This document shows, in pieces, positions 1,727 to 58,843 of a stretch of DNA of 64,000 nucleotides (its first letter is position 1; each line of letters starts with the position of its first letter). Under the pieces are notes generated by a model that was given only the letters and a program-made list of their open reading frames with translations, was not told the DNA's origin and made no database searches. The stretch lies in NCBI RefSeq assembly GCF_020379485.1, contig NC_063447.1:56471452-56535451 (forward strand), read 5' to 3'. The stretch is from Brassica napus. Taxonomy: Eukaryota > Streptophyta > Magnoliopsida > Brassicales > Brassicaceae. The position numbers and the translations under genes are program-made.

Positions 1727-3744
1727 GACTTCATATTTTATAGGTTTCTCAGACCTAAGTCAACAATGGTTTCTTGAATGCCTCTATTGATGTTTGTGCT
1801 CCGTTTGGCAGACTTTCAAAGACTTCATTAGTGTCTCAGAACAAAGTCAACAATGGTCTTGGATACCTCTAGTTTTGTGTTTGGGCTCCTTTTGGCTGAC
1901 TTAAATAAAAGACTTCATTAGTGTCTCATAACTCAAGCTGGATTCTATTTTAAACTAGGGGTTGATCCCCGCAAAGCGCGGAAATTATTATTCATTTTTA
2001 ATTTATCATTTAACAATTCTTTCATCGATATGATTTATTTTTTATTTTATGTTAGAATTTTTTCTCATATTATCTCATTTCAATTATTATAATATATTAT
2101 AATTTGTTAACATTGTGTTTATTTGATTAACGGAAATACAACATCATCATTTTGTGTGATTAACCAATTTTTTCAACATGGAAGTTGAAATAGATGTAAC
2201 GTATATTGTGCTTAATTTTTTTTCATGTGGTTTTTAATGTGTTTGTTTCAAAATATTTTAGTTTTATATGATTTTTTATTTAATATGCTGTATCTCTCTA
2301 TTCTTTCAATACAAAATCTGGATGTGTTTGCATATTTCATTAGATACAATAATTATAGGTTTGTGATTTATATCATTCACTTCAACTGCGGGTTTTAGAG
2401 TTTTCTTGTTATTAAAAAAAAAATATTATTTTATTGCTTGTTTTTAACTATTTAAAAATATTAGTTTTATTTGTGTATCAATTCTTGGTCATGATTTTCT
2501 AATACGTTCTTATTGATTTCCCTTACCTTGAGTTTCTACCAGAGAAAAAAAAGAAAATTCAATAAGATACATTACTTACCTTTTTTTAATTTTTGGCCAC
2601 TTTGTTTTGATGTAACGTAATAAGCAATATTGTAAATCGAGTTGTCTATTTTTGTTCTTATGAATTTTCATTTTTATTGTTAAAACGGATGTATTTCTGA
2701 TCATATTATGCATTTTCAATAGTTTTAATTGTTATATGTGTTATATCTTGTTATTTTTTTAACATTTTTTGTTTAAATTGATTATCTATTAATATTTGGT
2801 TGTGGTTTTATAGTTTTGTTAGTTTCTCAAAACTTGAGTTTGGGACTAATAATATCGTAATGGATTTTTCTCGTTTTGTTCTTTTGAAAGTTCTCTATAT
2901 ATTCTTGGATTTATGTATTGAATTATATAATGTATTTTCACGATTATGTTAATTTTGACTAATTGTTTTTACCAAATTTAAGTTATATTATGTATTTTAA
3001 AATTTCACTATTGAACTTTTTAATCTTGTTTTTTTTTTTTTTTTTTTCTTTTTGTATGATTAATATTATGTATTGATCACTGATAAGAATTTTTCACTAT
3101 TTTCTTATTAATTTTTCTAAGTTTGAGTCTGGTGAACTTAAATCTTTTGTGATATTCTATTTTTTATTTTGTTAAGGTGGATCTGTTAAAACGTGAAAAA
3201 TATAGTAAATGATGTTTTTTTTTTCATTTTCGCTAATTTTCTCAATTTATTCATAGAATTTATGTAATTTAGAATTATATTATGTTTCACTATAATAACG
3301 CTCTACATATAATGTTTTGCACAGAGATACATACATAAGTACGTATATAGTCTAATTTTAAGAAGTTTCTTCTCTTTAATCGAAAGAAGTGTTCTTAGTT
3401 ATCACTGGATTAATTTGGCATATAAAACAACTGCTTGCGAGAATGTTTTACCTTGTTCTGTTTCCTTTGTTTTTTTTGGATCATGTAACTGTTCACAGTA
3501 TATGCTCAATTAATTATTGCATTTGGAGAACTTTGTCAAGGGACTAGTTAGAAGTGGCATATCTGTAGTAGCATTTTTCTTTTCTTTTCTATGACCATTT
3601 GCTACATTATGTAATTCACGTACTTCATTTGTTTAAACAAACGCTATGTGTCTTCAGGAAAAAAAAAGTAATGATGCTAATAAGGAGTGGAAATATTTGG
3701 TAATTAAGTTTACAAAAAAAAAAAATATATTTGGTAATTACTAA

Positions 3745-4285
3745 CACTACAAGAAAACATCAAGGATTCTGAGGGAAAAAATCGTCGGAATTTCGTCGGA
3801 ATATCGTTATTCCGACGAAATTCCGACGAAACACGTCGTCGGAAATAATTCCTCGGAATTTCTTTTTTCCTCTGAAATCCCTCGGAATTTTCTGACGGAA
3901 TTCCGAGGAAATAAATTTCCGAGGAAATTCCGAGGATCCCTTGTTTGTCGGAAAAGTCCTCGGAATATACCGAGGTAGAACTTCGTCGGGATAATTCCTC
4001 GGAAGTTCATCGATCGATGCGTGTTTGGACATATATACATCGATCGATATGAGTATACCGACGGACTTTTTCCTCGGTTTATTCCGAGGAACTGTTCCCT
4101 CGGTATATTCCGAGGGATCCGTTCCTCGGAATTTTCCGAGGGAGTTGTCCCTCGGAAAATTCCGAGGGAAATGTCCCTCGCTATATTTTTTAAAAAAAAC
4201 GGATCGATCGATGCGTTTTTGTTCAAAAACGCATCGATCGATCTAGTGAAAAATATAATTAATTTCCTCGGAATGTAAAAAATAT
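3745..4285. repeat. CACTA left terminal inverted repeat and subterminal repeat array
   Basis: After the terminal CACTACAAGAAAACA, about 500 bp is built of degenerate direct and inverted copies of CCTCGGAATTTCC and CCGACGAAATTCCG, plus ATCGATCGAT palindromes near 4010, 4040 and 4200-4240. In En/Spm, repeated subterminal motifs bind TnpA and bring the ends together; the same role is inferred here. The long arginine/phenylalanine-rich ORFs crossing this area are artefacts of the repeats. Confidence 0.8.
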
Positions 4286-4423
4286 TAATTTTTTTGAAAA
4301 AATAAAATTTCTGAAATTTAAATTCGAAAATATGAAATTAAAAGTAAAATTGAAATCATATTAATTAATATTCAAAGTTTCACAAATAAAAATAAAACAT
4401 TCCGAGATTGGGGAAAAAAAAAA

Positions 4424-6634
4424 CTACGGGTCTGGCACGTCCGGGAACACCTCGTTCGGGTACATCCTCTGCATCATCTCCATCATTTGCTGGTTCAGCC
4501 TCCTCTGTGCCTCATAGCCCGCCTGTTGAGCCGCCATCTGGGTCTCCAACAAAGATATTCGATCATCTTTGTCCTTCAACTGAGCCGTAAGTACTTCTGG
4601 ATCAACAAAGGGCGGTGGTGCAGAAGAAGGAGGAACCGACCGGGTGCGACGACCCAAACCGAACAAACGTCCCTTCTTCTTTGGAACCGACTGAATAGAA
4701 AAAAGCCAAATTTAGAAATTTAAACCAAGAAATAAATGAATTGAACTTTAAAAAAAAAGAACTTACGGATTCAACGATTTCGTTGATTCGAAACCGGGAC
4801 AAGTTGGTCGAAGCCGTCGAAGCGTCATCCTCGGTTTGAAGCTGAGACACTTCGTCTACCACCTGAGTTTGGACCAGGTCGACCACGTCCCTCACAAGAC
4901 CGTCATCAATCTGGCCGGTCTTCTTGTTGGTATACGCCCTCCTCATTAGGGCGAGATCATCGACCGGCTCGCCATCATTTTCTTCCGCCTTGAAAAAAAA
5001 CATAAAATTAAAGAAACATTAGAAATTAGAAGAAATGCACAATAAATTTAAATTCTGAAACTCAAATAATTGAAGAAAAAGCGGTTGAACTTACCATGCG
5101 ATCTCCGAGAGTGGCAATAGATTGAGCACCCAAGTTATGCTTGTAGATGCCCTTCCCTTTACGGTCGCTCCTGCGGTTGGTGGAGTTGGTGGAAGAAGTT
5201 TCTTTCGTCTCCTCCTTATCCCAATGCGCACACAACTCCTTCCAGACCGTGTCGTTCATCGACTTTGGGACCTTTTAATTAAAAAAAAAAGAAAAAGTTT
5301 AATAAATTAAAAAATAGTTTAATAAATTAAAAAATTGTTTAATAAATTAAATCGAACCTTATTGATTTCCCACTTCTTCTTCCACTCGTGGATCTGCTTC
5401 CCATAGTTGTCCATTACTTTATGGACGAAGTGGTGATAGATAAAGAGCGTCTCATCGGAATTCCAGTTGAACTCTTGCTGAAAAAAAAACACAATTAGTA
5501 GAAAATTTATATTAAAGATTAAAAATATAAGTAAAAAATTAGAATACTTACCGCAAACTGACGAAACCACAGAACCTGCTTGTCGGTTGGGAAGTGAGTG
5601 AAAGTCGGATGTCCACTGTCGAGGGCCGAGTACATCATACGGTTGATCCATGCGCTGATCCCGTTCCCGGATCGGTTGAACCTTATTAAAAGAACAAACG
5701 GTTAATAATGAATCCAAATTTAAAGAAAAAAAAATGTTTAATTACCATGTTTGACCCCGTCCATGTGGATACGGAGTGAGATACGGAAGATGGTCACGAC
5801 CGGGCTGTTGAACCAACTCCGCAACCCTCATCACTCCCGGAGGACCCGGAGGAACAGGAGCGGATGCAGCAGCGGGAGCGAGAGGAGCATGAGCGGGTGC
5901 AGCAGAGGGAGATGTATGGTTGGAGCTGTGGGGCGAAGGGGAATCCTGAAAATGGCTGGAATCCCGAGACTGGCTCCCCGTACCACCACGACCACGACGC
6001 TGTCGAGGCCGGGTCTGATCATCATGAGACCTGTAAATTAAAAAAATATATTAATAAATACAGAAATATATAAATTAATTTTTTTATTAAAAAAAATCCC
6101 AAATAATTTAATCACAGAAAAAGATTTATATATATTAAATTTTTTTAATAAATATATAAAAATAGTTCTAATAAACAAAAAATAGTTTTAATAAATAAAA
6201 ATTGTTTAATAATTACAAAAAAATAGTTTTAATAATATATATATATGAAAAATATTTTTAAATCCCAAATAATAGTATTTAATCACAAAAAAGTTTTATA
6301 GATATTTAAAATGTTTTGTAAAATCCAAAAAATCGAATTTATATAGAAATTTTTTTTTTAAAATCCAAAAAATCGAATTTATATAGAAAAATCGTTTTGT
6401 AAAATACAAAAATCGATTTTATATACAAAAATCGATTTTATAAATACAAAAATAAAAAAATTATAAAAAAATTCTAAATCAATTCAACAAAACAAATTAT
6501 TCAACCAAATCACAATTCTAAACCTATTATACAACCAAATCACAATCCTAACCAATCACCCTAACAAAAATCTATCAAAACTACACAAAAACCTAACAAA
6601 TAGAACCTAAGAGAGTGGGATAGGGTCCTTACAT
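4424..6634 (-). CDS. TnpA-like protein of the CACTA element (Ptta/En/Spm plant transposase type), 400 aa
   Basis: Exons fitted by GT/AG and frame: 6633-6634, 5746-6030, 5552-5681, 5358-5477, 5095-5271, 4767-4988 and 4424-4690, summing to 401 codons without a stop. The protein has an arginine/glycine- and proline/alanine-rich N-terminus, a conserved core beginning [20 protein letters not shown] and including [15 protein letters not shown] and [16 protein letters not shown], then an acidic linker and a C-terminal coiled coil ([20 protein letters not shown]). TnpA proteins bind subterminal repeats to synapse the ends. The first exon supplies only AT of the start codon, with G from exon 2. That start is an inference; the rest is firm. 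A TATA-like TTATAA lies at 6763-6768. Confidence 0.75.
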
Positions 6635-8196
6635 GATTTGTGTAAGAGAAGAGGGAGATCGCCGGAGATATCGTCGGATTTCAGGGGGAAATCGCCGGAG
6701 AGAAAGAGAGGAGTCGCGCAGAGGAAGAAGAGAGAAATGGGGAAGAAGAAGGGGCTCGTGGTTATAAAACCTAGGGTCCGACGGACATTATCCGTCGGAA
6801 TTCTAATTTCAATTTTCGCGAAATATTTGCCCGGTAAAATGAAAATATTCCGAGGAAATTCCGACAGATAGTAAAATATCCGTCGGAATTTCCTCGGAAT
6901 ATTCCGAGGAAATACCGAGGAACTAGTGTTTGGGGTTTCAAAACATCAATTTTTTTTGCCGTATTTCATTTCTTATACAATTGTAATGCATACCATTGAG
7001 GATTCTTTGTATACATGAGCATAAACCATGAAATAACAAATTTCAAAACTAATTGAAAGTATTCCCTTTACCGTTCATTAAAAGGTATAAGTGTTTCTCT
7101 TATGTTGCGAGATTTCGTTCATACAATCGGAAAAGTGTTAATTATACGGTAAGGAACAAATTTTTGACTTCATAATGAACGTAAGACACTTAATAAGGGT
7201 TATATAGGTGTTATTCAAACGGCAAAACGTTGTTTTCGGTTTAAAAACCCTATTTCCTCGGAATTTCCTCGGATTATTCCGAGGGAACTCCGAGGAAACC
7301 CTCTTCTTCCTCGAAATTTCCTCGGAATATTCCGAGGAAATTCCGACGAACTAGTGTTTGGGGTTTCAAAACGTAATTTTTTTTTAAAAAACGCATCGAT
7401 CGATGCGTTTTTGAACAAAAACAAATCGATCGATTACTAAGATGGCCCGGGCCGTAAGATTGTGATCGATCGATGAGAGTATCCCATCGATCTATCGACA
7501 ATCTGAATTGTTCCTCGGAATTTCCTCGGAAAATCTTGTATGTTTTTTTAAAAATGCATCGATCGATGCGTTATAGAACAAAAACGCATCGATCGATTAC
7601 TAGGATGGACCGGGCCGTAAGATTGTGATCGATCGATGAGAGTATCCCATCGATCTATCGACAATCTGAATTGTTCCTCGGAATTTCCTCGGAAAATCTT
7701 GTATGTTTTTTTAAAAATGCATCGATCGATGCGTTATAGAACAAAAACGCATCGATCGATTACTAGGATGGACCGGGCCGTAAGATTGTGATCGATCGAT
7801 GAGAGTATCCCATCGATCGATCGACAATCTGAATTGTTCCTCGGAATTTCCTCGGAAAATCTTGTATGTTTTTTTAAAAACGCATCGATCGATGCGTTAT
7901 AGAACAAAAACGCATCGATCGATTACCAAGATGGCCCGGGCCGTAAGAATGTGATCGATCGATGCGTTATAGAAAAAAAACGCATCGATCGATGCGTGTT
8001 CGGAAAACAGAATTATAAGGCAAAACCCGACCTTTTTTGGATCTAAACCTTAGAACTCTCATCCCCTCCGATTTCCCCTATAATTCGCCCCCCCTTTCTC
8101 TCTCTATAATCATCCGATTTGAACAATTTTGGGCTCTATTCCACTTGATTTTTCGAGCTCTACCTGATTCCTACACTCGTCTTCACCCTAAGACAG
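6635..8196. promoter_or_regulatory. Central divergent promoter region of the CACTA element
   Basis: This is the gap between the TnpA-like gene (-) and the third ORF (+). It holds a TATA-like box at 6763-6768 for the minus gene, blocks of the CCTCGGAA/TTCCGAGG motif at about 6775-6925 and 7250-7360 that match the subterminal arrays, and the 163-bp tandem array at 7377-8000 just upstream of the plus-strand transcript. TnpA binding here could couple expression to end binding, as TnpA does at the Spm promoter. That role is inferred. Confidence 0.55.
7377..8000. repeat. Tandem array, 163-bp unit, with ATCGATCGAT palindromes
   Basis: The segment TGTGATCGATCGATGAG recurs at 7461, 7624 and 7787, with a variant at 7950, an exact 163-base period. 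Each unit carries several CGCATCGATCGATGCG-type palindromes, a GGCCGTAAGA motif and one TTCCTCGGAATTTCCTCGG. The copies are nearly identical, so the array is young or homogenised. Similar palindromes occur in the left subterminal region. Confidence 0.9.
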
Positions 8197-8501
8197 GTAT
8201 ACTCCGCGAATCTCCACATTCTGAAATCGTGTTCTTGAGCAATTTTTTGGGTTTTGTGAATTTCTTATTTCCGTGTTGATTCCTTGATCAAATATGCATG
8301 AAACAGATGTTTAAACATGGAATAGAACACAATTGTCTGTGATCAACGAGTTTGGAACATGATTTGAGATGATTTAGGGATAGAGAATTTTTTTCAATTT
8401 CGTTTTTTTTTATCACAACTCGATTTCGCTTTTCATTTTCATGTTGCTTTGAGTTCTTAATTGATTATAACCATGTTGAGAGCAATGATTCTATTTTGTA
8501 G
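8197..8501 (+). other. Probable 5'-UTR intron of the third CACTA ORF
   Basis: A good donor (AAGACAG|GTATAC) and acceptor (TATTTTGTAG) bracket 305 bp just before the ATG at 8505. The upstream segment has the pyrimidine-rich look of a plant leader. This supports the ORF having its own transcript. Confidence 0.5.
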
Positions 8502-8504
8502 AGA

Positions 8505-9953
8505 ATGAAGCGCACGAAAACATCAGCAAAGAAAAACACACAAGAAGAGGGTTCGTCACAGCTGGAGAAGCAAAGGCCAAAGAAGTGGGATAAGTCTGAT
8601 ACCACCCACTACAACAACATGAAGAAGGTAGCCGTTCCGGCTACACAACTAGCATGTCCTGAGACGATGACAATATTGGGAATCAAAGCAGACATTGAAG
8701 GACTGTTCCAGAACATGGGTCTAGGCCAACTATGCAACCTCAAGGAACCCACTTATCCGGAGTTGGTACGCCAGTTCATAGCATCCGCATACGTCACCCG
8801 TCCCGATGATAGCCATCAGGAAGGTTTTCTGGCATTCGTAGTGCAGAAAGTATACTATGAGGTATCTTTCACAGACCTCTGCGGACTATTTGGATTGAGT
8901 GCGGGGGAGAGGACATATGGTCTTTATTGGACTTCAGAGCTGTTGAACTTCTGGGAAACGATTGGCACAGGGGTTTATAGATCTTCTCAGGCAAAGGAGT
9001 CACTTATCCGGAGCCCAGTACTGAGATATGCGACACGCCTCATTGGCTCATTGCTATACGGGACAACCACAGCCGCATCAGTCACGCAATGGGAGTTGTG
9101 CCTCCTGTACCAAGGTGTGAGGCATTTGCTACCGGCATTTGGAAACTCTACATTCCCACCTGCTACTGCCTTCAACATGGGAGCGGTGCTGGCCGCAAAC
9201 TTAGCAGGATACAAGGGGAAAGTAACCAAATCCAAGAGCAATGCATGTGGATTTGGTGCAGTGATTACTCGGATCCTTAGACATGTGGGTGTAGACTGCG
9301 AGAACCAGCAGGTAGCACTGGACAGATCGAACAACATTGCTTGGAACTACCTGGATGTCATTTCTCTAGTAAGTAAGGAGTTCATAGCTGGTCCCCACTC
9401 GAGGATCCATCGGGATGGTCCTTACGTCTACGTATTCCAGGACCGAGCGAAGAAAACACTCTACTGCCACCTGCCTCAGATCGGCCTGACTGCTCTACTT
9501 TCAGAGGCTGCAGTTGAGTTCCTACCCCCTGCTACCGCACTAGTAGACAAGCCATCCTTCTTCACGCCAAAATATCAGACCAAAGGCAAGGGCGTGGTTG
9601 ATGAAGAAGGACAAGATGAGGCTGCACAAGCCATTCCAGATGATTCACAACCCCATCAGCTACTCCCATCAGACTCCAGCCAGTACAAGCTGCAAGAGCT
9701 TCCACCGAACGCCACTTCGCGCCAGCAACAACATTGGAGAGATCAGAGCATAAAGACAAACAACGACATGCTACACAAGATCTGGGCTGCCATTTCACGT
9801 ATCAGGCCGTGTCGTTGCCAAAAGGATGATGTAGTTCATCGGGACAACTCTCCATCCAGCTCTGGTTCGGGTTCGAGTGGTACACACAGGGTAAGAAAGA
9901 GGTCCAAGAGACCCAACGATGCAGGAACATCTGGAGCAGGAGACGAGGAGTAG
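8505..9953 (+). CDS. Third ORF of the CACTA element, Athila/retrotransposon ORF1-like protein, 482 aa
   Basis: This is a single uninterrupted exon, antisense to both transposition genes. The N-terminus is basic (KRTKTSAKK). The middle, about residues 65-345, resembles the plant 'retrotransposon ORF-1' (Athila ORF1, gag-like) family: an opening PTYPELVRQFIASAY, FTDLCGLFGLSAGERTYG, WELCLLYQGVRHLLPAFG and an AAVEFLPPATALV end. The C-terminus is rich in Ser, Gly and Arg/Lys with a likely nuclear localisation signal (RVRKRSKRP). The family call is from memory of its pattern. Function in the element is unknown: it may be a nucleic-acid-binding accessory protein, or a captured passenger. Its intact frame and apparent leader intron argue for use. 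Confidence 0.75.
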   Translation: MKRTKTSAKKNTQEEGSSQLEKQRPKKWDKSDTTHYNNMKKVAVPATQLACPETMTILGIKADIEGLFQNMGLGQLCNLKEPTYPELVRQFIASAYVTRPDDSHQEGFLAFVVQKVYYEVSFTDLCGLFGLSAGERTYGLYWTSELLNFWETIGTGVYRSSQAKESLIRSPVLRYATRLIGSLLYGTTTAASVTQWELCLLYQGVRHLLPAFGNSTFPPATAFNMGAVLAANLAGYKGKVTKSKSNACGFGAVITRILRHVGVDCENQQVALDRSNNIAWNYLDVISLVSKEFIAGPHSRIHRDGPYVYVFQDRAKKTLYCHLPQIGLTALLSEAAVEFLPPATALVDKPSFFTPKYQTKGKGVVDEEGQDEAAQAIPDDSQPHQLLPSDSSQYKLQELPPNATSRQQQHWRDQSIKTNNDMLHKIWAAISRIRPCRCQKDDVVHRDNSPSSSGSGSSGTHRVRKRSKRPNDAGTSGAGDEE

Positions 9954-10233
9954 GAGCTATCACCGGCTATTTTATTTTCTTTTCTATTCTAACGTTTTAT
10001 GGTCTTATTTTCTGTTAATTTTGAACTGAGTTTTTTTTTAGGTTTCTTAATTATGAGTTCGTATTTCTTTTACATGGTTTCTTTGTTTTATTTGGTTGTG
10101 TTTTGTGTAGCTTTTAATTCGTATTCAGCTTTGCCTTGCTAGATAAACCAAATAACTATTATCCGAGGAAAGAGGTTATATCAAGTGTTCCTCGGAATTT
10201 CCTCGGTATTTCTTAAAAAAAAAAAAAATAAGT

Positions 10234-13200
10234 TCAATGGTAGTCTGTTTCCGAGTCATCATCACCAGATGAATCTGAATCTGGATCTTGGTGAAACTCT
10301 CCAATCACTGGTTCATCCTCTACGTGAACGACGGCTTCCTCTCCAAAGTCGGTTAAATCGACTACAAGGCCAACTCCAGCTAAATCTTCTGCTGCACTAC
10401 AGTTGCCGGATGTGCTTGGTTGTAGTGGGTCTTCCAGCTCAGAACTTCCCTGAACTCGGCCTCTCGGGTTGAGTCTTGTAACAGTAACCCATGGATCATC
10501 TCTGTTCCTTACCCGGGGGTACTTGATATAACAAACCTGTAACATTTAGAAAAATTATAAATTAATACACATGATGATGAATCATTCTGAATAATTAACA
10601 TTTAATTACCTGATCGGCCTGGGAAGCAAGAATGAAAGGATCATAATATTGCAGCTTTCGCCTCGAATTTACTGATGTAACACCAAATGCATCTGTTCTC
10701 ACACCTCGATCTGGGGTGTTGTCGTGCCAATCACAATAGAAAACAGTACAGCGCAATCCAACCATGCCCAAATACTTGATTTCCAAAATCTCATGTATGT
10801 GTCCGTAGTATACATCATCTCCTGATGCAGAACAAACGCCAGCATCATAAGTCGTACTCGAACGTCTCCTCTTCTGAGTTGTGAATGCATATCCTCGAGT
10901 ACAAAATCTCGGATATGACTTCACAACAAAGTTTGGTCCAACGACCATCTCACGTATCCAATCGTCAAATGTTTCACCTCTGGCCAAACCAGCAGACACC
11001 TATTAATAGCACATATATATATATTATATCAATAAATGTGAATTAGTATAAATATGTGATAAAATATATTTTAATTTGTTTAAAGCACTCACATAAGTAA
11101 ACATCCATCCAGTAAATTCTCTCTGCTTCATTTCTTCTAGTTCGTCCTCTGTGGCGTATCTATACTCGAACCGCTTTTCTGCCATGAAAATCCTGTATAT
11201 GATGACAATAATGTAATTAATTAAGATTTAAATTTCAACTTGTTAAAATAAAAATTTGTAAGCTCATTTATTTACCTCTCATATTGAAGAACGTCTTCGC
11301 AGTTGGTGAGCAAATATGTTTGCAAATGACTGCGCTCCTGCTCAGTAAGTCGACGGTCCTTTGGTTTTCCGCTAAGTCGTCCAACGTCTGTGAAAATGTC
11401 TGGAACCGTAACATGATATGTTGCCCGTTCGCCTCTATCATCATGCCGAGCAGGTCTTCTGTTTTTGGTCTGAACTTCTGCTGGAAAGTAGTACTCGGCA
11501 AAGTTTGAAGTTTCTTCATTGATCATCTGTGCGACTATAGAACCTTCCACCCTACTTAAATTTTTCACCATCTTCTTCAAATGGAACATATACCGCTCAT
11601 ACAGATACATCCATCTATACTGCACAGGACCACCAAGTTCCAATTCTCTTGCCAGGTGAATAACAAGATGCTCCATAACATCAAAAAATGAGGGAGGAAA
11701 TATCTTCTCAAGGTTGCACTGAATCACGGCTATGTTAGTCTTCAAATTTTCAATACCTTCAAGAGTCACTGATCTCGTGCATAAATCGCGGAAGAAACCA
11801 CTTATCCCTGCAATTGCTTCATGAACATTTCGTGGTAATAGTTCCTTGAAGGCGAACGGAAGGAGGCGCTGCATCATTACATGGCAATCGTGGCTTTTCA
11901 AGCCAGTAAACTTTCCTTCCTTTCTGTCGATACAGTTACGCAAATTTGATGCGTAACCGTCTGGAAATTCCACATCGTTTGAAATCCAATCAAAGAACGC
12001 ATCTTTTCCCGCTGCATCAAGTCGGTATATGGGAAAAGGAGCCCTACCATTCTCATCAACATGAAGTTCTGAACGAGCACATATATCGACTAAATCCAGT
12101 CTTGACTTCAAATTATCCTTTGTTTTACCTTGAACATTAAGGATCGTGTTCATGAGATTGTCAAAAAAGTTCTTCTCAATATGCATGACATCTAAATTAT
12201 GCCTTAGCAGATGATCCTCCCAGTATGGCAGATCCCAGAAAATACTTTTTTTGTGCCAGTTATGTAGTTCTCCAACAGCATCTACCGGAAAACGCTCATG
12301 TCCACCGACTTCTGGCGTCCTTTCTGCACCAAAATCTCTTAGTTGTATCTTCAAATCTTTCCCACAAATTTCCGGAGGTGGACTGTCAAACACCCTCTTG
12401 TTCTTCGTAAACAAATTCCTACTCCTACGATATGGATGATCAGGTGGTAGGAATCTCCTGTGACAGTCAAACCAACACGTTTTCCTTCCGTGCTTTAGTT
12501 GGAAAGCATCAGTGTTATCTTGACAATATGGACATGATAGCCTTCCATGCGTTGTCCATCCAGACAACATACCATATGCTGGAAAATCACTTATTGTCCA
12601 CATTAGTACTGCCCGCATTTGAAAGTTTTCTTTACACGAAACATCGTATGTTTCAGCACCTTGAGCCCATAGTTGTTGCAACTCATATATTAGTGGCTGA
12701 AGAAACACATCAAGTGATCTCTTAGGATGCTCTGGTCCGGGAACGAGAATCGAGAGAAACAAAAACTCTCGTCGCAAGCACAAGTTTGGGGGGAGGTTGT
12801 ATGGTGTAAGAATGACGGGCCATAGAGAATACTGTCTTCCACTCTTGCCAAACGGACTGAAACCATCAGTACATAATCCAAGGTAGACATTTCTTCTCTC
12901 ATACGCAAAGTCGGGATACTTTGATTGGAAATGCTTCCACGCTTTTGCATCTGAAGGATGTCTGATCTCACCATCTGTTGAGTGCTCCGCATGCCATCTC
13001 ATTGGTTGCGCTGTGCGTTCAGACAGATACAACCTCTGCAACCTTTCCGTCAAAGGTAAATACCACATCCTTTTATATGGCACTGGAACTCTTCCACTCG
13101 TATCTTTATAACGAGGCTTTCCACAAAATTTGCATGTAACCCGCTGTTCATCCGCCCTCCAATAAATCATGCAGTTGTCGCTGCATACATCTATTACCTG

Positions 13201-13851
13201 ATACGATAAACCAAGACCAGCTACGAGTTTCTGAACCTCGTAGTATGAACCAGGAGCTACATTATCCTCGGGTAGAATACCTTTTACAAAATCAGCAATC
13301 GCATCCACACAGTCTTCAGCCAAATTATAATCTGTTTTAATGCCCATCAATCTTGTAGCAGATGATAAAGCTGAATGACCATCTCTGCAACCTTCGTACA
13401 ATGGTTGCTTTCCAGCATCCAACATATCATAAAATCTCCTAGCTTCTGCATTGGGTAAATCTTCCCCTCTAAAATGATCATTTACCATCTGCTCAGTACC
13501 TACACCATAATCTACATCCGTTCTAATTGGTTCTTCTAATCTAACCGCTGGCTGAGGTTCACTAGTACTACCATGTTCATAATCAGTTTCCCCATGATGA
13601 TACCAAATTTTGTAACTTCGTGTAAACCCACTCAAATATAGATGAGTCCAAACATCCCACTCTTTAATAACCTTTCTATTTTTACAATTAGAGCAAGGAC
13701 ATCTTAACATACCTGTTTTTGCTTCCGGTTGTCGGTGAACTAACCCCATGAATTCGGTTATACCTCGTTGGTATTCTTCCGTAAGCAATCTCGTGTTCGG
13801 ATCCAAATGAGGTCGATCGATCCAAGAACGAAAATAATTTGAAGAAGACAT
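10234..13851 (-). CDS. CACTA transposase (TnpD/Tnp2 family), 1122 aa
   Basis: Four exons (11276-13851, 11093-11192, 10610-10999, 10234-10536) join into 1123 codons with no stop. Domains in order: N-terminal transposase-associated domain with CPCSNC (about residues 5-85); a CxxC pair near 240; the Tnp2 catalytic core with GLCTDGFSPFG (Asp 329) and ISDFPAYGMLSGW (Asp 422), then SCPYC; NLDVMHIEKN further on; a DUF4218-like region (LPFAFKELLPRNVHEAI); and a DUF4216-like region across exons 3 and 4. The C-terminus is acidic. It should catalyse excision and insertion at CACTA ends. A TATA box lies at 13937-13944. The length is normal for the family and no lesion was found. Confidence 0.92.
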
Positions 13852-13936
13852 ATTTTTTATGAATCAAATTCGTGTGTAAATAGAGTAAGAGGGAGGATGA
13901 AGATATGAAGTGAATGAAGAGGAAGAGGAGTGCTTG

Positions 13937-13944
13937 TATTTATA
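13937..13944 (-). promoter_or_regulatory. TATA box of the CACTA transposase gene
   Basis: TATAAATA on the minus strand, 86-93 bases upstream of the ATG, followed by a pyrimidine-rich leader. Confidence 0.6.
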
Positions 13945-13959
13945 GTTTAAATCCTGCCG

Positions 13960-14256
13960 ACATACCGAGGAAATTCCGACAGAATCCCGACGGACAAAAC
14001 TAGTTCGTCGGAATTTCCTCGGAATTTTGTAAAATCCCCCAACGGCTCTCCAACGGCTATAATATTTCCTCGGAATTCATCGGTTTTTTCCGAGGAACAC
14101 AGTTTTCCTCGGAATTCCGTCGGTATATTCCGAGGAAATTCCGAGGAAACCCAATTTTGTGTTTCCTCGGAATTTCCTCGGAAATTCCTCGGTATATTCC
14201 GAGGATTTCATTTTCCGTCGGAATGTCCGTCAGAATATCGCTGTTTTCTTGTAGTG
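13960..14256. repeat. CACTA right subterminal repeats and terminal inverted repeat
   Basis: Dense copies of TTCCTCGGAATTTCCTCGG and TTCCGAGGAAATTCCGAC lead to the terminal GTTTTCTTGTAGTG. The motif matches the left end and the central region. The transposase transcript starts within this block, so end-binding proteins could affect its promoter. Confidence 0.8.
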
Positions 14257-15614
14257 TAAGCCACTGCTCGTGTATCTTTGCCATTGTGCTTGGACTATTT
14301 TGTTTTAAGGTTCCTGTTTGATTTTCTACATCTAGAATCATTTGCAGATAGTTACTTCTTGTGATGAGAGCATCTTTTCCTTTGCATTTTTAGTTATCAT
14401 TCCTTATTGTTTTTACGATACATAGTGAACTCTGCTTGATTGTACATGAACCCATCAACCTTTTAAAATGTTAAATGTATAAAAGTACTATTTTCAAGGT
14501 TTGTGAATGAGTAATAATTCCATTTCACCAATAACAACAATCCATTGTTACTGAAATGCTGAAACAGACTTGAAATGTTTTTACAATCTTTCATACTTAT
14601 TTTGGTCATGGAACTGTACTGCTAATTAAACATAATGCAAGATATTGTCATAAATAGGACGCTGTGAAATTTTTGTAATAGCATTGTTATTTGCTAAAAA
14701 CTTTATAATCATTATTTATTTGCAAACTACAACTTAGTACGGTAACTGTAAAACTAAGAGAGAATCATGAAGTTGTGATTCAATAGTAGTTAAAAAAAAA
14801 ACTTTACCAATTAGTCATTTCATATATAGAACCGTTATGAGACTGTCAATCTTTCAAATTGCAAAACGAATGGTGAGTGAGTCAACTGAACAACCACCTT
14901 AAACCAGGCTCGTAACTCGTAAGCATACATCTCTTGTAACCTCAGGAGTTACTTGTGGCCTTGTGGGTTTCCTGGAGTCAGAAATGCTCCACAATTAAAA
15001 ACAATTCTGTATTTTCATGATTCAAGAAAAGAAAGAAATAAGAATGTATCATCAAAGTCTCCAGACTCTCCACCCATAAAAGAAGAGAACTGAATGAGAG
15101 GTGCACTGTAATGATCATGCTCGTTGATTCAAATGTTCGTCAGAGCCATGCCAAAACCTCTTAAGAATTTCGGAACTCCTTTCCAGATTGTTTCATGGAA
15201 GAAGCTCATACCCGCTCTCATTTCATCTTGTGGTGTAGGTGGAATTCTTCATATTTTCATCCGTGAGGAAAGTAGCTTGACTCTGGTGCAACAAATACAG
15301 AGCTTTAATATATTTCATGCAGTAAAGAAAGCTTTATCAGTAGGATTAGTGTTCTTTTCATATAACTGTGTACAACAGTCACATACCCTGATAACATTGA
15401 AAAAAAAACACATGAGTAATCAAGTGTCAAGTAACTTGAGAAAAAAGTCTACAGACCTTCCAAACTTTTGCAGCAAAGACCAATGATTAGATTGAGTGGG
15501 ATGAGCAGTTAAGACCAAGTCAACAGGCTAATTGTTGAGAGCATCAAACAGCTATTCAGGAGGTGGAACTGTCTTAAATATTTTTATCAACTTTTTTCCA
15601 ACTATTCAGATAGA

Positions 15615-15824: not shown

Positions 15825-16376
15825 TAGGCCTGACACTTATTATCCGAGATCCGGATTCGATCCGAGATCCGGATTCGATCCGAGATCCGCTCCGGATCCG
15901 CTCCGAAAATAGGATATCCGGGGTGCCCGGATCCGAATCCGGATAGTATAATCTTGGATCCGTGCAAACCGAATCCGGATCCGGATATCTTAATTTTTAG
16001 GTCCGGATATCCGGATCCGGATCCATATTTTTAAAATACATTAAATTTTTTAATTTTATTAATATTTATATTTGATATATAATATTTATACATGAATTAA
16101 TCTTATAATATTATATTTTAGTTTTTACAATATTATAAACATATATAAATATATTTATAAATATTTAATTTATGTATTATATTAAAAAAATAGTATTTTT
16201 TGTTAAAAAAATTATTTTTAATTATTTTGACGGATCCGGATCCGGATATCCGCGGATAATAGAATATCGAGACGGATATCCGGATACCACGAATCCAGAT
16301 CCGGATATTAAATCCACGGATCCGACGGATCCGGATACCCTAAATTTTCCGGATATCCGGATCCGTCACAGGCCTA
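15825..16376. mobile_element. hAT-like non-autonomous element rich in GGATCCGGAT repeats
   Basis: The 552-bp element begins TAGGCCTGAC and ends GTCACAGGCCTA, flanked by eight-base duplications TACACGGT and TACACAGT (one mismatch), as hAT elements make. The ends are built of overlapping CCGGATATCCGGATCCGGAT-like units and the core is AT-rich. It has no coding capacity; the 72-codon ORF across the right half only reads the repeat (DPD, YPD). Confidence 0.8.
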
Positions 16377-16503: not shown

Positions 16504-17353
16504 AGAGAAATTCTTGGGTTCACCCCCTATTCACCAACCAATAGTGGTTGAGTATTTGATATTTGATATCTTTTAAAAAAAGAAATAAAATTGAATATCC
16601 AAATTAGATTATATTTTTAAAATAAAATAATAAAAATACATAAAAATAGTTACAAAAAATAAATTAATTAATATTGTTAAATCTTCAGCAAAATACTAAA
16701 CTCTATACCCTAAATCCTAAACCCTAAACCCTAAACGTTAAACCTTAAACTTTGGATAAACTCTAAACCGTTGGAAAATCTTAAACCCTAAATCATACAT
16801 TAAAAACTAAATTTTAGTAACACTAAACCCTAAATCCTAATCACTAAACTCTAAACCCTTGGGTAAACCCGAAACCCTTGGGTAAACTCTGAACCCTTGG
16901 ATAAATCATAAACTCTAGGGTTTAATTTTAAATATTTTTGATTTAGAGTTTATGATTTATCCAAGGGTTCAGGGTTTATCCAATGGTTTAGGGTTTAGTG
17001 ATTAGGGTTTAGGGTTTAGTGTTATTAAGATTTAGTTTTTAATGTATGATTTAGGGTTTAAAATTTTCTAATGGTTTACGGTTTATCCAAGATTTAAGGT
17101 TTATAATTTAGGGTTTGGAGTTTAGAATTTAGGATATAGGATTTATTATTTTGGTAAAAGTTTATCAATATTTATTTTTATTTTTTTTGTAACTATTTTT
17201 ATGTATTTTTATTGTTTTATTTTAAAAATATAATCTTATTTGGAAATTCAATTTTGTTTCCTTTTTTAAAAGATATCAAATATCAAATACTCAAACACTA
17301 TTGGTTGGTGAATCTAGAGGCTCACCTTAGGGGGTGAACCCAAGAATTTCTCT
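16504..17353. mobile_element. Large palindromic TIR element with internal telomere-like repeats
   Basis: The left end AGAGAAATTCTTGGGTTCAC is perfectly matched by the complement at the right end. The arms (CCCCTATTCACCAACCAATA..., ATTTGATATTTGATATC) pair for several hundred bases, so the 850-bp unit folds into a long hairpin. Inside, arms of TAAACCCTAAACCCTAAAC and its complement resemble degenerate plant telomere repeat TTTAGGG. The flanks (ATATCTTAA left, ATCTTTAAT right) may be a decayed 8-9 bp target duplication, hinting at a Mutator-like origin. No gene inside. Confidence 0.7.
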
Positions 17354-56997: not shown

Positions 56998-58843
56998 ATG
57001 AACAATCCATTATTGTTATCCATCTCAAACCCAGTAAAGCTCTTGAAACCATCAACAATCCCCTACGGAAGAAGCCGAAACACCACCACTAACAAGAAAC
57101 ATCAGCATCAAAGCAGAACCCTTGTAGTAAATTCCAACACGAGATCAAGAACAACATTGACCAGTTGTAGTCTCTCGGTAGTTAGAGGGAGAAACAACAA
57201 TGGTGGTGGGGGCTTTGCTGAAACGAAAGTGGGTAGAAGAGATCAAGGAAACGCGGTTTTGCTATGTGCTGTAGGGTATTGGGTTCAAGGGTCAAGGTGT
57301 TTCCCATGGCTTGCACTTAACTTTCACATGTCTCATTGCCTTAACCTCAAGCCATCGACGCTTCAGCTTGTGCAGTACACTGCTATTCTTCCCATGGTGG
57401 CTAAACCTCTCTATGGAGTCCTCTCAGATGTTCTGTACATCGGTGGTGCTCGTAGAGTTCCTTACATCTCCATTGGAGGTTAGTCACAAAGATTTTCTTG
57501 TCTAGAAAAAAAATCCTAGCTGGTCGAATATTTTTGTTGTAGCATGGCGGGTTCTGAGCATAGCCGGATGAAACTTTTGCATGTCCAAATCTTAAAAAAC
57601 TATTACACATATAGCTCCCAAATTATTAAAATTAATTTAAAAATGTTTTTGCTCAATTTTTTTTTTTTTTTTTTTTTTTTAAATGTTTAAATCTCAGATC
57701 CTATTTGTCTCAGTGCTTTTGCAAGGTTTAGCATGGGGTTCATTAGCAATATTCCCCGGTTCTCGAGAAGCTCTTCCTTCACTTTTGGGACTTGCTTTGC
57801 TTAGTAACCTTGGAGCATCCATTGCTGAAGTTGCACAAGACGCATTAGTTGCTGAGTACGGTTTAAGATACCAAATGAATGGTCTTCAGTCCTATGCCCT
57901 CATGGCTTCAGCTGTTGGAGGAATCCTTGGAAACCTACTTGGTGGATATTGCTTGCTCAAGACACCTCCTAGAATCTTGTTCCTTGCTTTCACAGCTATC
58001 TTGTCTCTTCAGCTCACTGTTTCTCTGTCCTCCAGAGAAGAATCATTTGGCCTACCACGGATAAGAGAGACAAGTTTAAAGAAACAGTTTACAGATCTTA
58101 TGGGAGTTATTCAGGGAGATGAAGTCTCTCAGCCATTAACTTGGATCATAGCTTCCATTGCAATGGTGCCTCCTCTCTCAGGATCAGTCTTCTGCTACCA
58201 AACTCAAGTTCTGAATCTTGATCCTTGGGTTATAGGAATGTCAAAGGTTATTGGACAGTTGATGCTTCTATGTTTAACCGTGGTTTACGATCGTTACTTG
58301 AAGAAGACGCTTCCCATGAGGCCACTGGTCCATATAGTCCAGCTCCTATATGCATTGTCATTACTCTTTGATTACATTTTGGTGAAGCAAATAAATGTAA
58401 CGTTTGGAATCTCCAACAAGGCTTTTGTGCTTTGCTTTTCAAGTGTGGCTGAGATTCTTGCACAGTTCAAGATTCTTCCGTTTTCTGTCTTGCTAGCAAA
58501 CATGTGCCCTGGAGGATGTGAAGGATCCATTACTTCTTTCTTAGCTTCAGCTCTGTGTTTGTCATCGATAGTTAGCGGGTTTGCTGGAGTTGGGATGGCT
58601 AATGCGATCGGTGTAACGTGTAATAACTACGCAAACTTGCCTGCAGGAATCTTGATGCAGTCTTTGACAGCTATGTTGCCTTTGTGGTTTATTCATTATG
58701 TTCCAATGTCAGAGAATGGGGTTGAGAGAGAAGGTAAGAGAGCTTTGAGTAAGAGAAGTAGGAGGAGTAGACGTGTAGGAAGAGTAGTTGGACAGGAGAT
58801 TTTCGCTTACCGTCGAGAAAGAGATGCAGAAGCACAAACATAA
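56998..58843 (+). CDS. Folate/biopterin transporter family (BT1/FBT, MFS-type), plastid-targeted, 536 aa
   Basis: Two exons (56998-57478 and 57714-58843) join ISIG|VLLQGLAWGS into 537 codons. The acceptor at 57713 is chosen over the one at 57697 because only it keeps the frame. Residues 1 to about 75 are basic and Ser/Thr/Asn-rich, like a chloroplast transit peptide. The rest is a polytopic membrane protein with BT1-family marks: WLALNFHMSHCLNLKPSTLQ, LPMVAKPLYGVLSDVLYIGG, IAEVAQDALVAEYG and LPFSVLLANMCPGGCEGS. The family moves folates or pterins; the substrate of this member is not shown. The intron holds a T24 tract. Recalled as At2g33280. Confidence 0.92.

Follow-up and report, generated by a model that had tools for sequence, protein, structure and literature searches.

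The domain PF03078 is reported by Neumann et al. from the extra open reading frames (ORFs) present in 16% of Athila elements (PMC6317226), and a Medicago study took the same domain as an ENV profile (PMC2533021). In sunflower, the aORF(+) of Athila 14 is described as a 3' extra ORF of 487 aa, PF20167-like and with a nuclear localization signal, and its authors relate PF20167 to PF03078 (PMC11728184). For the antisense extra ORFs of LTR elements, Vicient and Casacuberta (2020) raise a role as RNA; as set out in that review, such ORFs are without similarity to other transposable elements (TEs), which is held against an origin by TE insertion (PMC7264820). PF20167 itself carries the Pfam label of a putative plant transposon protein.

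In the 64,000-nucleotide stretch of Brassica napus DNA analysed here (the window), an intact PF03078 gene lies inside a CACTA element. Its product belongs to a family homologous to that of the sunflower aORF(+), which has a similar length and a basic, nuclear-type signal (PMC11728184). Unlike the extra ORF of Athila, which lies in sense behind gag-pol, this gene is antisense within a CACTA element and is accompanied by no match to pol or to Athila-type flanks.

The Brassica CACTA element Bot1 reportedly carries a copy of the SLL3 gene; SLL3 is a small secreted peptide. The cargo of the window element differs from the one recounted for Bot1 in being a PF03078 protein and not an SLL3-type peptide. 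Compared by description, both are abundant CACTA elements, the window family probably in the C genome, Bot1/BoCACTA being described as C-genome-specific (PMC3469537, PMC5740159), with an estimated 956 units in B. oleracea and 143 in B. rapa (PMC5740159, PMC3469537) and a C-subgenome FISH signal (PMC5740159).

Further parallels come from other transposons. KI-MULEs with an Ulp1 protease also have a foreign coding sequence antisense to the transposase and many copies (PMC2528002), but these are Mutator-like elements with a host-type protease, whereas here a CACTA element carries a retrotransposon-type gene. In Beta vulgaris, Coe1 similarly is a single element composed of class I and class II parts (PMC2426827); unlike in the window element, however, its tnp2 transposase gene is described as enclosed by putative LTRs, together with a reverse transcriptase that is broken, that is, in the reverse nesting. 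CACTA elements of Chenopodium and Cactavine-5 of grape have gained foreign sequence, in grape in the opposite orientation (PMC8978399, PMC2528002), but in the form of gene fragments or added domains, whereas here it is a complete ORF of a type known from another class of mobile element. Taken singly, foreign sequence in CACTA elements, extra genes in antisense orientation and mosaics of class I and class II are already known; their combination is absent from the literature searched, where we found no description of a CACTA element carrying PF03078, most subscription papers lying outside the search.

Structure of the CACTA element and its third gene

The CACTA (En/Spm) transposon is complete and occupies positions 3745-14256 of the window (10,512 bp). 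CACTACAAGAAAAC stands at its ends in inverted orientation, at 3745 (+) and 14243-14256 (-), and with up to two mismatches these are the two matches in the entire window (0.65 expected in shuffles). The terminal inverted repeats begin with CACTA, and the first 15 bases common to both ends are CACTACAAGAAAACA. A 3-bp target duplication (TAA/TAA) flanks the element. All features of the class, namely ends, target-site duplication, TnpD, TnpA and subterminal repeats, are present, so that what the earlier note, made from sequence alone, had called an apparently intact CACTA transposon is borne out by inverted ends, by the TAA duplication and by TnpD and TnpA that are both open. The exon structures of these two genes are predicted, by GT-AG splice rules on the minus strand. 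The features are as follows.

3742-3744, no strand: left target-site duplication TAA, read from the flank
3850-4273, no strand: left subterminal repeats, 9 TCCTCGGAA and 4 ATCGATCGAT sites
4424-6634, minus strand: TnpA gene, 400 aa, open GT-AG model with 7 coding pieces
6634-6633, 6030-5746, 5681-5552, 5477-5358, 5271-5095, 4988-4767 and 4690-4424, minus strand: TnpA coding pieces of the GT-AG model
6848-7857, no strand: internal copies of the TCCTCGGAA class, from TnpA to the captured gene, 12 sites
7380-7964, no strand: ATCGATCGAT-rich 163-bp tandem array upstream of the captured gene, varying in length between copies by whole units
8197-8500, plus strand: predicted leader intron of the captured gene, GT...AG, from splice signals only
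8505-9953, plus strand: Athila-ORF1-like gene, 482 aa, single coding exon, from the ORF list and Pfam
10163-10208, no strand: short internal repeat patch 3' of the captured gene, one TCCTCGGAA site
10234-13851, minus strand: TnpD transposase gene, 1122 aa, open GT-AG model and Pfam
13851-11276, 11192-11093, 10999-10610 and 10536-10234, minus strand: the four TnpD exons of the GT-AG model
14016-14205, no strand: right subterminal repeats, 9 TCCTCGGAA sites and no ATCGATCGAT
14257-14259, no strand: right target-site duplication TAA, read from the flank

TnpD exon 1 contains the Pfam domains Transposase_21, DUF4218 and Transpos_assoc, the tnp2-type transposase (PF02992) being matched with an E-value of 3.2e-77. 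TnpA matches PF03004 (Transposase_24, E 2.5e-34), and in its model the start codon is split by the first intron.

The third gene starts with the ATG at 8505 on the plus strand and runs without internal stops to the stop codon that ends at 9953; it is the second longest of the 11 ATG ORFs of at least 120 aa in the window. It is placed between TnpA and TnpD, antisense to both, and overlaps none of their coding exons. The 482-aa protein matches PF03078 (ATHILA ORF-1) with an E-value of 4.4e-45 and 154.8 bits, compared with a curated cut-off of 20.2; there is a match to PF20167, below threshold, too, and a Pfam search at E-values up to 1 yielded nothing beyond these two families. The description of an intact, intron-free, Athila-ORF1-like frame of 482 codons in antisense orientation therefore stands, and the HMM search that the earlier note had proposed for it gave a score far above the cut-off.

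Upstream of the ORF, an AT-rich stretch near 8080-8112 is a candidate promoter region. The GT and AG of the predicted leader intron are retained in 11 of 11 aligned copies, which says little because the copies are nearly identical. At the C-terminus, the protein has the basic stretch VRKRSKRP, a putative nuclear signal, and P0017, its nearest Athila-type relative, has ERRSKRR at the matching place. A search of solved structures with the protein returned one chance match (E 0.4), and an AlphaFold model from a 12-row alignment was poor (mean pLDDT 34.9) and not usable for reading the fold. Scans of viral and prokaryotic contigs confirmed no relative.

The repeats of the element are strongly confined to it. 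There are 31 sites of TCCTCGGAA inside the element and none in the other 53.5 kb of the window (0.2 expected from shuffles of the element), and 18 sites of ATCGATCGAT inside compared with none elsewhere in the window (0.05 expected), the latter being restricted to the left-end zone (4 sites) and the region upstream of the captured ORF (14 sites). The internal TCCTCGGAA region also includes a 75-bp direct repeat (6883-6957 and 7311-7385, 92%). Among 26 copies, the 163-bp array has the length found in the window in 14, one unit more in 10, one unit less in one and two units less in one. For pack-CACTA capture, a hybrid of neighbouring CACTA elements is the route proposed in the source (PMC13317346), and such a hybrid could have left the end-type repeats that flank the foreign gene here.

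Several other features of the window lie outside the CACTA element. Two 136-aa genes of the self-incompatibility S1 family (PF05938) are found at 55-465 and 1276-1686 on the minus strand, 1.2 kb from start to start. Dense short ATCCGGATCCGGAT-type repeats at 15840-16370 surround an AT-rich core and resemble a small inverted-repeat element, and at 16529-17313 there is a large fold-back, with 369-bp arms that are 87% complementary and 47 bp apart, containing degenerate telomere-like CCCTAAA repeats. A BT1-family transporter (PF03092) extends over two ORFs at 56998-58843 (+), presumably exons of one gene.

Relatives of the captured protein and probable direction of transfer

Word-based searches of 5.8 billion proteins place the close relatives, among the named matches, in C-genome Brassica only (B. 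oleracea, B. cretica, B. napus and B. carinata). P0004, which stands for 304 sequences, is 99% identical to the window protein. The next family, represented by P0017, is 33-36% identical and is the nearest outside family; no intact intermediate between the two was found in these searches. Three B. carinata models with 54-74% identity consist of near-identical stretches broken by frame changes, P0036, P0038 and P0039 from this species reading like frame-disrupted copies; these models look like decayed or mis-modelled members of the same CACTA-gene family.

A search of the genome with the PF03078 profile led to 92 scored places, none of which belongs to this (lower-scoring) CACTA family. Thirty of these places were cut out and fell into five clusters; the identity of the cluster representatives to the CACTA protein is 23-26%. 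When one representative per cluster was extended upstream, pol was found in sense 5' of the ORF in five of five, interrupted in L029 and L051; without extension, integrase was seen at the edge in 22 of the 30 loci. In the one copy of the P0017 family that was examined, the ORF is likewise in sense, 3' of reverse transcriptase, RNase H and integrase. In every one of the six other PF03078 clusters, each represented by one examined copy, the gene accordingly lies 3' of retrotransposon pol. We call these elements Athila-type on the strength of PF03078, the domain order and the literature, other Ty3-type elements being conceivable.

The gag-like nature that the earlier note had proposed for the protein is not upheld, given that PF03078 marks an extra ORF 3' of pol in six of six clusters; a gag reading is ruled out by the absence of any gag family among the Pfam matches at E-values up to 1 and by this position of the relatives. 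For the window copy, a recent nested Athila insertion is also ruled out: P0017-type pol matched nothing in the window and seven Athila-type loci matched nothing in the element, although the positive control was matched.

Some observations concern the retrotransposons themselves. In the P0017 family, 71 of 85 scored places are without a stop, most of them near full length and with 94-97% identity to P0017. Upstream of the Athila-type loci L061 and L064, in which pol is interrupted, ATCGATCGAT occurs in both and TCCTCGGAA in L064, which suggests insertions of CACTA type. Downstream of the P0017-type ORF of L060 (C348:2918912-2923900), antisense open stretches at approximately 2590-3790 encode a tandemly repeated, charged, coiled-coil-like peptide.

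In a tree from the 27-row alignment minus 8 rows (two loci that were short and six Brassica proteins that were fragmentary or wrongly modelled), the CACTA protein is grouped with P0017 and P0020 with support of 100/100, and the six retrotransposon clusters fall on both sides of the midpoint. The root is this midpoint, and long branches were flagged, including P0024, which meets the CACTA/P0017/P0020 group. On the tree and by parsimony, the transfer would have proceeded from Athila-type elements to CACTA under the midpoint root, a root on the CACTA stem leaving the direction open. Capture from an Athila-type element is favoured because the six clusters are found behind pol and a single gain by CACTA suffices.

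The opposite course, with the gene native to CACTA-type or other DNA transposons and acquired from them by Athila, would suit the report of the domain in just 16% of Athila elements (PMC6317226) and the naming of the related PF20167 as a putative plant transposon protein, but is highly improbable given that the six other clusters sit behind retrotransposon pol on both sides of the tree midpoint and that one gain by CACTA is enough. We regard it as extremely improbable that a host PF03078 gene was caught independently by CACTA and by Athila: host gene fragments are indeed described as captured by CACTA elements (PMC8978399), but all PF03078 clusters examined sit in mobile elements, and the named close matches in the databases are labelled retrotransposon ORF1 or hypothetical. 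Capture of the PF03078 gene by a CACTA element, followed by stable carriage, is very probable, and the earlier suggestion that a class I coding sequence was taken up by a class II element is, from the pol context of the relatives and the tree, the best-supported reading. A Brassica C-genome CACTA element would have gained the Athila-type extra gene, originally 3' of pol, in an orientation antisense to TnpD and TnpA, and as the element multiplied the gene would have gone with it as a permanent third gene.

Copies, mobility and selection

The searched assembly comprises 997 Mb in 3116 contigs. Each protein query produced more than 2250 candidate places, the best-scoring of which were scored, so that the copy counts are lower bounds, and intact copies (480 or more codons open, with no stop) are over-represented in the lists because the best places alone were scored. 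Among these best places, the frame is intact in 88 of 88 with the window ORF as the query, in 88 of 88 with P0004 and in 108 of 127 with P0013, the other 19 of the last set consisting of 16 shorter open frames and three with a stop. The union of the three queries amounts to at least 202 places with an intact frame, of which 193 are on nine contigs of 48-74 Mb, whose number and size would agree with those of the C chromosomes of B. napus, and nine are on other, small contigs.

Ten copies, picked from the 88 places of the window-ORF query and hence with an ORF that is intact by choice, were fetched for the analysis of the ends. Matching 3-bp duplications flank eight of the ten and comprise seven different sequences, with AAT occurring twice: AAT, GGC, GAA, CAG, ATA and GGT in the six copies with both ends perfect, and AAT and TCT in C475a and C348a, which have a variant left end. 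Of the remaining two, one has its left end beyond the fetched piece, and in the other no right end could be identified. The matching target duplications in eight of ten copies show that the frame moves with the CACTA element. Whereas the ORF was selected to be intact in all ten, TnpD is intact in five and TnpA is stop-free in nine.

Anchors outside the ORF lead to the same arrangement. When TnpD exon 1 served as the sole anchor, 53 places were obtained. In at least 33 of them an intact ORF from the lists sits where it would be expected, antisense and with a spacing of 1315-1328 bp in the first 27 that were matched; the other 20 are in no list of intact ORFs and may be broken or deleted. Similarly, an identical non-coding stretch of 291 bp picked out 40 places, of which 26 coincide with an intact ORF of the lists, two have a shorter frame (412 and 366 codons), and 12 are in no ORF list and may be broken, deleted or below the cut. 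A shortened frame is also found in L066, a young copy with no synonymous difference counted. Six annotated Brassica proteins (P0010, P0015, P0016, P0018, P0035 and P0039) fuse pieces of the left half of the CACTA element with pieces of the ORF, all on one strand; therefore, copies in other records, including B. oleracea, share the arrangement. In P0006 and P0015 (models from B. napus and B. oleracea), a MADS-box start is joined to the ORF, which may reflect either a copy within or next to a MADS-box gene or chimeric models.

The window element is neither an artefact nor ordinary debris but a member of a CACTA family that is present in high copy number and possesses a complete third gene of retrotransposon type; a single-copy oddity is ruled out by the at least 202 intact places together with the TnpD-anchored ones. 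The same ORF, which the earlier note had proposed to look for in other CACTA copies, is present in many copies of this genome, antisense and at the same place. That note had also taken a dN/dS near 1 with mostly broken siblings as the mark of a passive passenger; many siblings prove intact (at least 202 places, from best-scoring lists), and the copies compared are too similar and too selectively drawn to yield a useful dN/dS.

Selection was assessed in the window copy and ten others, a sample picked by ORF similarity and with tiny counts. In the ORF there are nine distinct nonsynonymous and five synonymous changes, about 0.64 of the neutral expectation (few changes, in copies picked by the ORF), compared with 37 and 12 in TnpD and 18 and 6 in TnpA, both at 0.99 of neutral. 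Divergence among the 11 copies is 0.63% in the leader and intron, 0.48% in the TnpA introns and 0.42% in the stretch 6960-7240; the values for TnpD (0.40%) and the subterminal regions (2.39%) are inflated by one copy without the right end. The ORF, with 482 codons, 33-36% identity to the nearest relative and a basic C-terminus that is kept, appears, on this indirect evidence, to have been long constrained, although this constraint could date from its retrotransposon phase.

The gene could instead be a passive passenger, captured by chance, amplified in a recent CACTA burst and intact because the copies are young. Such a history agrees with the longest aligned block relative to the window element, which is 98.2-99.5% identical in six copies, and with an ORF divergence (0.23%) about equal to that of the 3' flank (0.21%) and of the TnpA coding sequence (0.24%), but the ORF is still less divergent than the leader, the introns and another non-coding stretch, in this ORF-biased sample. 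The restriction of the named close protein matches to C-genome Brassica is consistent with recent spread as well; nevertheless, the full frame, the stop codon and the basic C-terminus persist despite the 33-36% identity to the nearest outside relative, and among the 5.8 billion proteins (word-based search) there is no intact intermediate, the B. carinata models with 54-74% identity looking like disrupted copies of the same family. The lack of an intact intermediate implies either an old, maintained capture or a near donor that is lost or unsampled. All in all, a passive passenger seems somewhat unlikely. It is very unlikely that the antisense unit acts as a transcript, as a source of small RNAs or by interference with TnpD and TnpA messages, with the protein being irrelevant: the antisense orientation to both transposition genes would fit, as would the RNA role raised for those extra ORFs of LTR elements that are antisense (PMC7264820), but an RNA has no need for 482 codons to stay open at 202 or more places, and the ORF does not overlap the coding exons of TnpD or TnpA. 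The account that we favour, with some reservation, as the best explanation of the whole is that an Athila 3' gene was acquired by a C-genome CACTA element, spread as a standing third gene and has an accessory role.

Possible functions of the captured gene

For a useful accessory function of the protein taken by itself, the chances appear evenly balanced. The captured gene would be transcribed from its own promoter, and the protein would be imported into the nucleus and bind the element, where it may serve, by a weaker line of reasoning, as a nuclear accessory factor acting in trans. The most plausible target would be the chromatin or the transcription of the element, through the repeat arrays that adjoin the captured gene.

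The VANC protein of VANDAL elements is described as binding short motifs of non-coding tandem repeats, which vary in size by expansion and contraction, and as causing a loss of methylation (PMC5735166, PMC10398659). As in this system (VANDAL, Mutator-like, Arabidopsis), the window element combines an extra transposon gene with motif-rich tandem repeats that vary in length between copies; unlike VANC, the captured protein matches PF03078 and PF20167 alone at E-values up to 1, and a different transposon superfamily is involved. DUF1985, the VANC-type domain, is absent from the Pfam matches of the captured protein at E-values up to 1. Anti-silencing via the tandem array is a tentative idea that we consider unlikely. 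A more specific form, built on this analogy and quite unlikely in our judgement, is that the Athila-type protein is the CACTA family's own anti-silencing factor, which would be expressed from the antisense promoter, enter the nucleus and bind the ATCGATCGAT-rich 163-bp array and the left-end motif, so that copies stay demethylated and mobile. If this were true, such a factor would help to explain the amplification of CACTA elements in the C genome, and a VANC-like system would have been built from a retrotransposon accessory gene, providing a testable function for the extra ORFs of Athila.

More generally, the extra ORFs of plant LTR retrotransposons are without a settled function, and the Athila 3' ORF family now has an intact, high-copy counterpart in a CACTA element. 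This counterpart suggests that a PF03078 protein may serve a purpose where there is no reverse transcription and where particles and LTRs are missing, and such usefulness would argue against a role in an envelope or particle and for a nuclear or chromatin role. With these abundant elements of a crop genome, a protein of the Athila ORF1 type can be tested separately from Athila itself.
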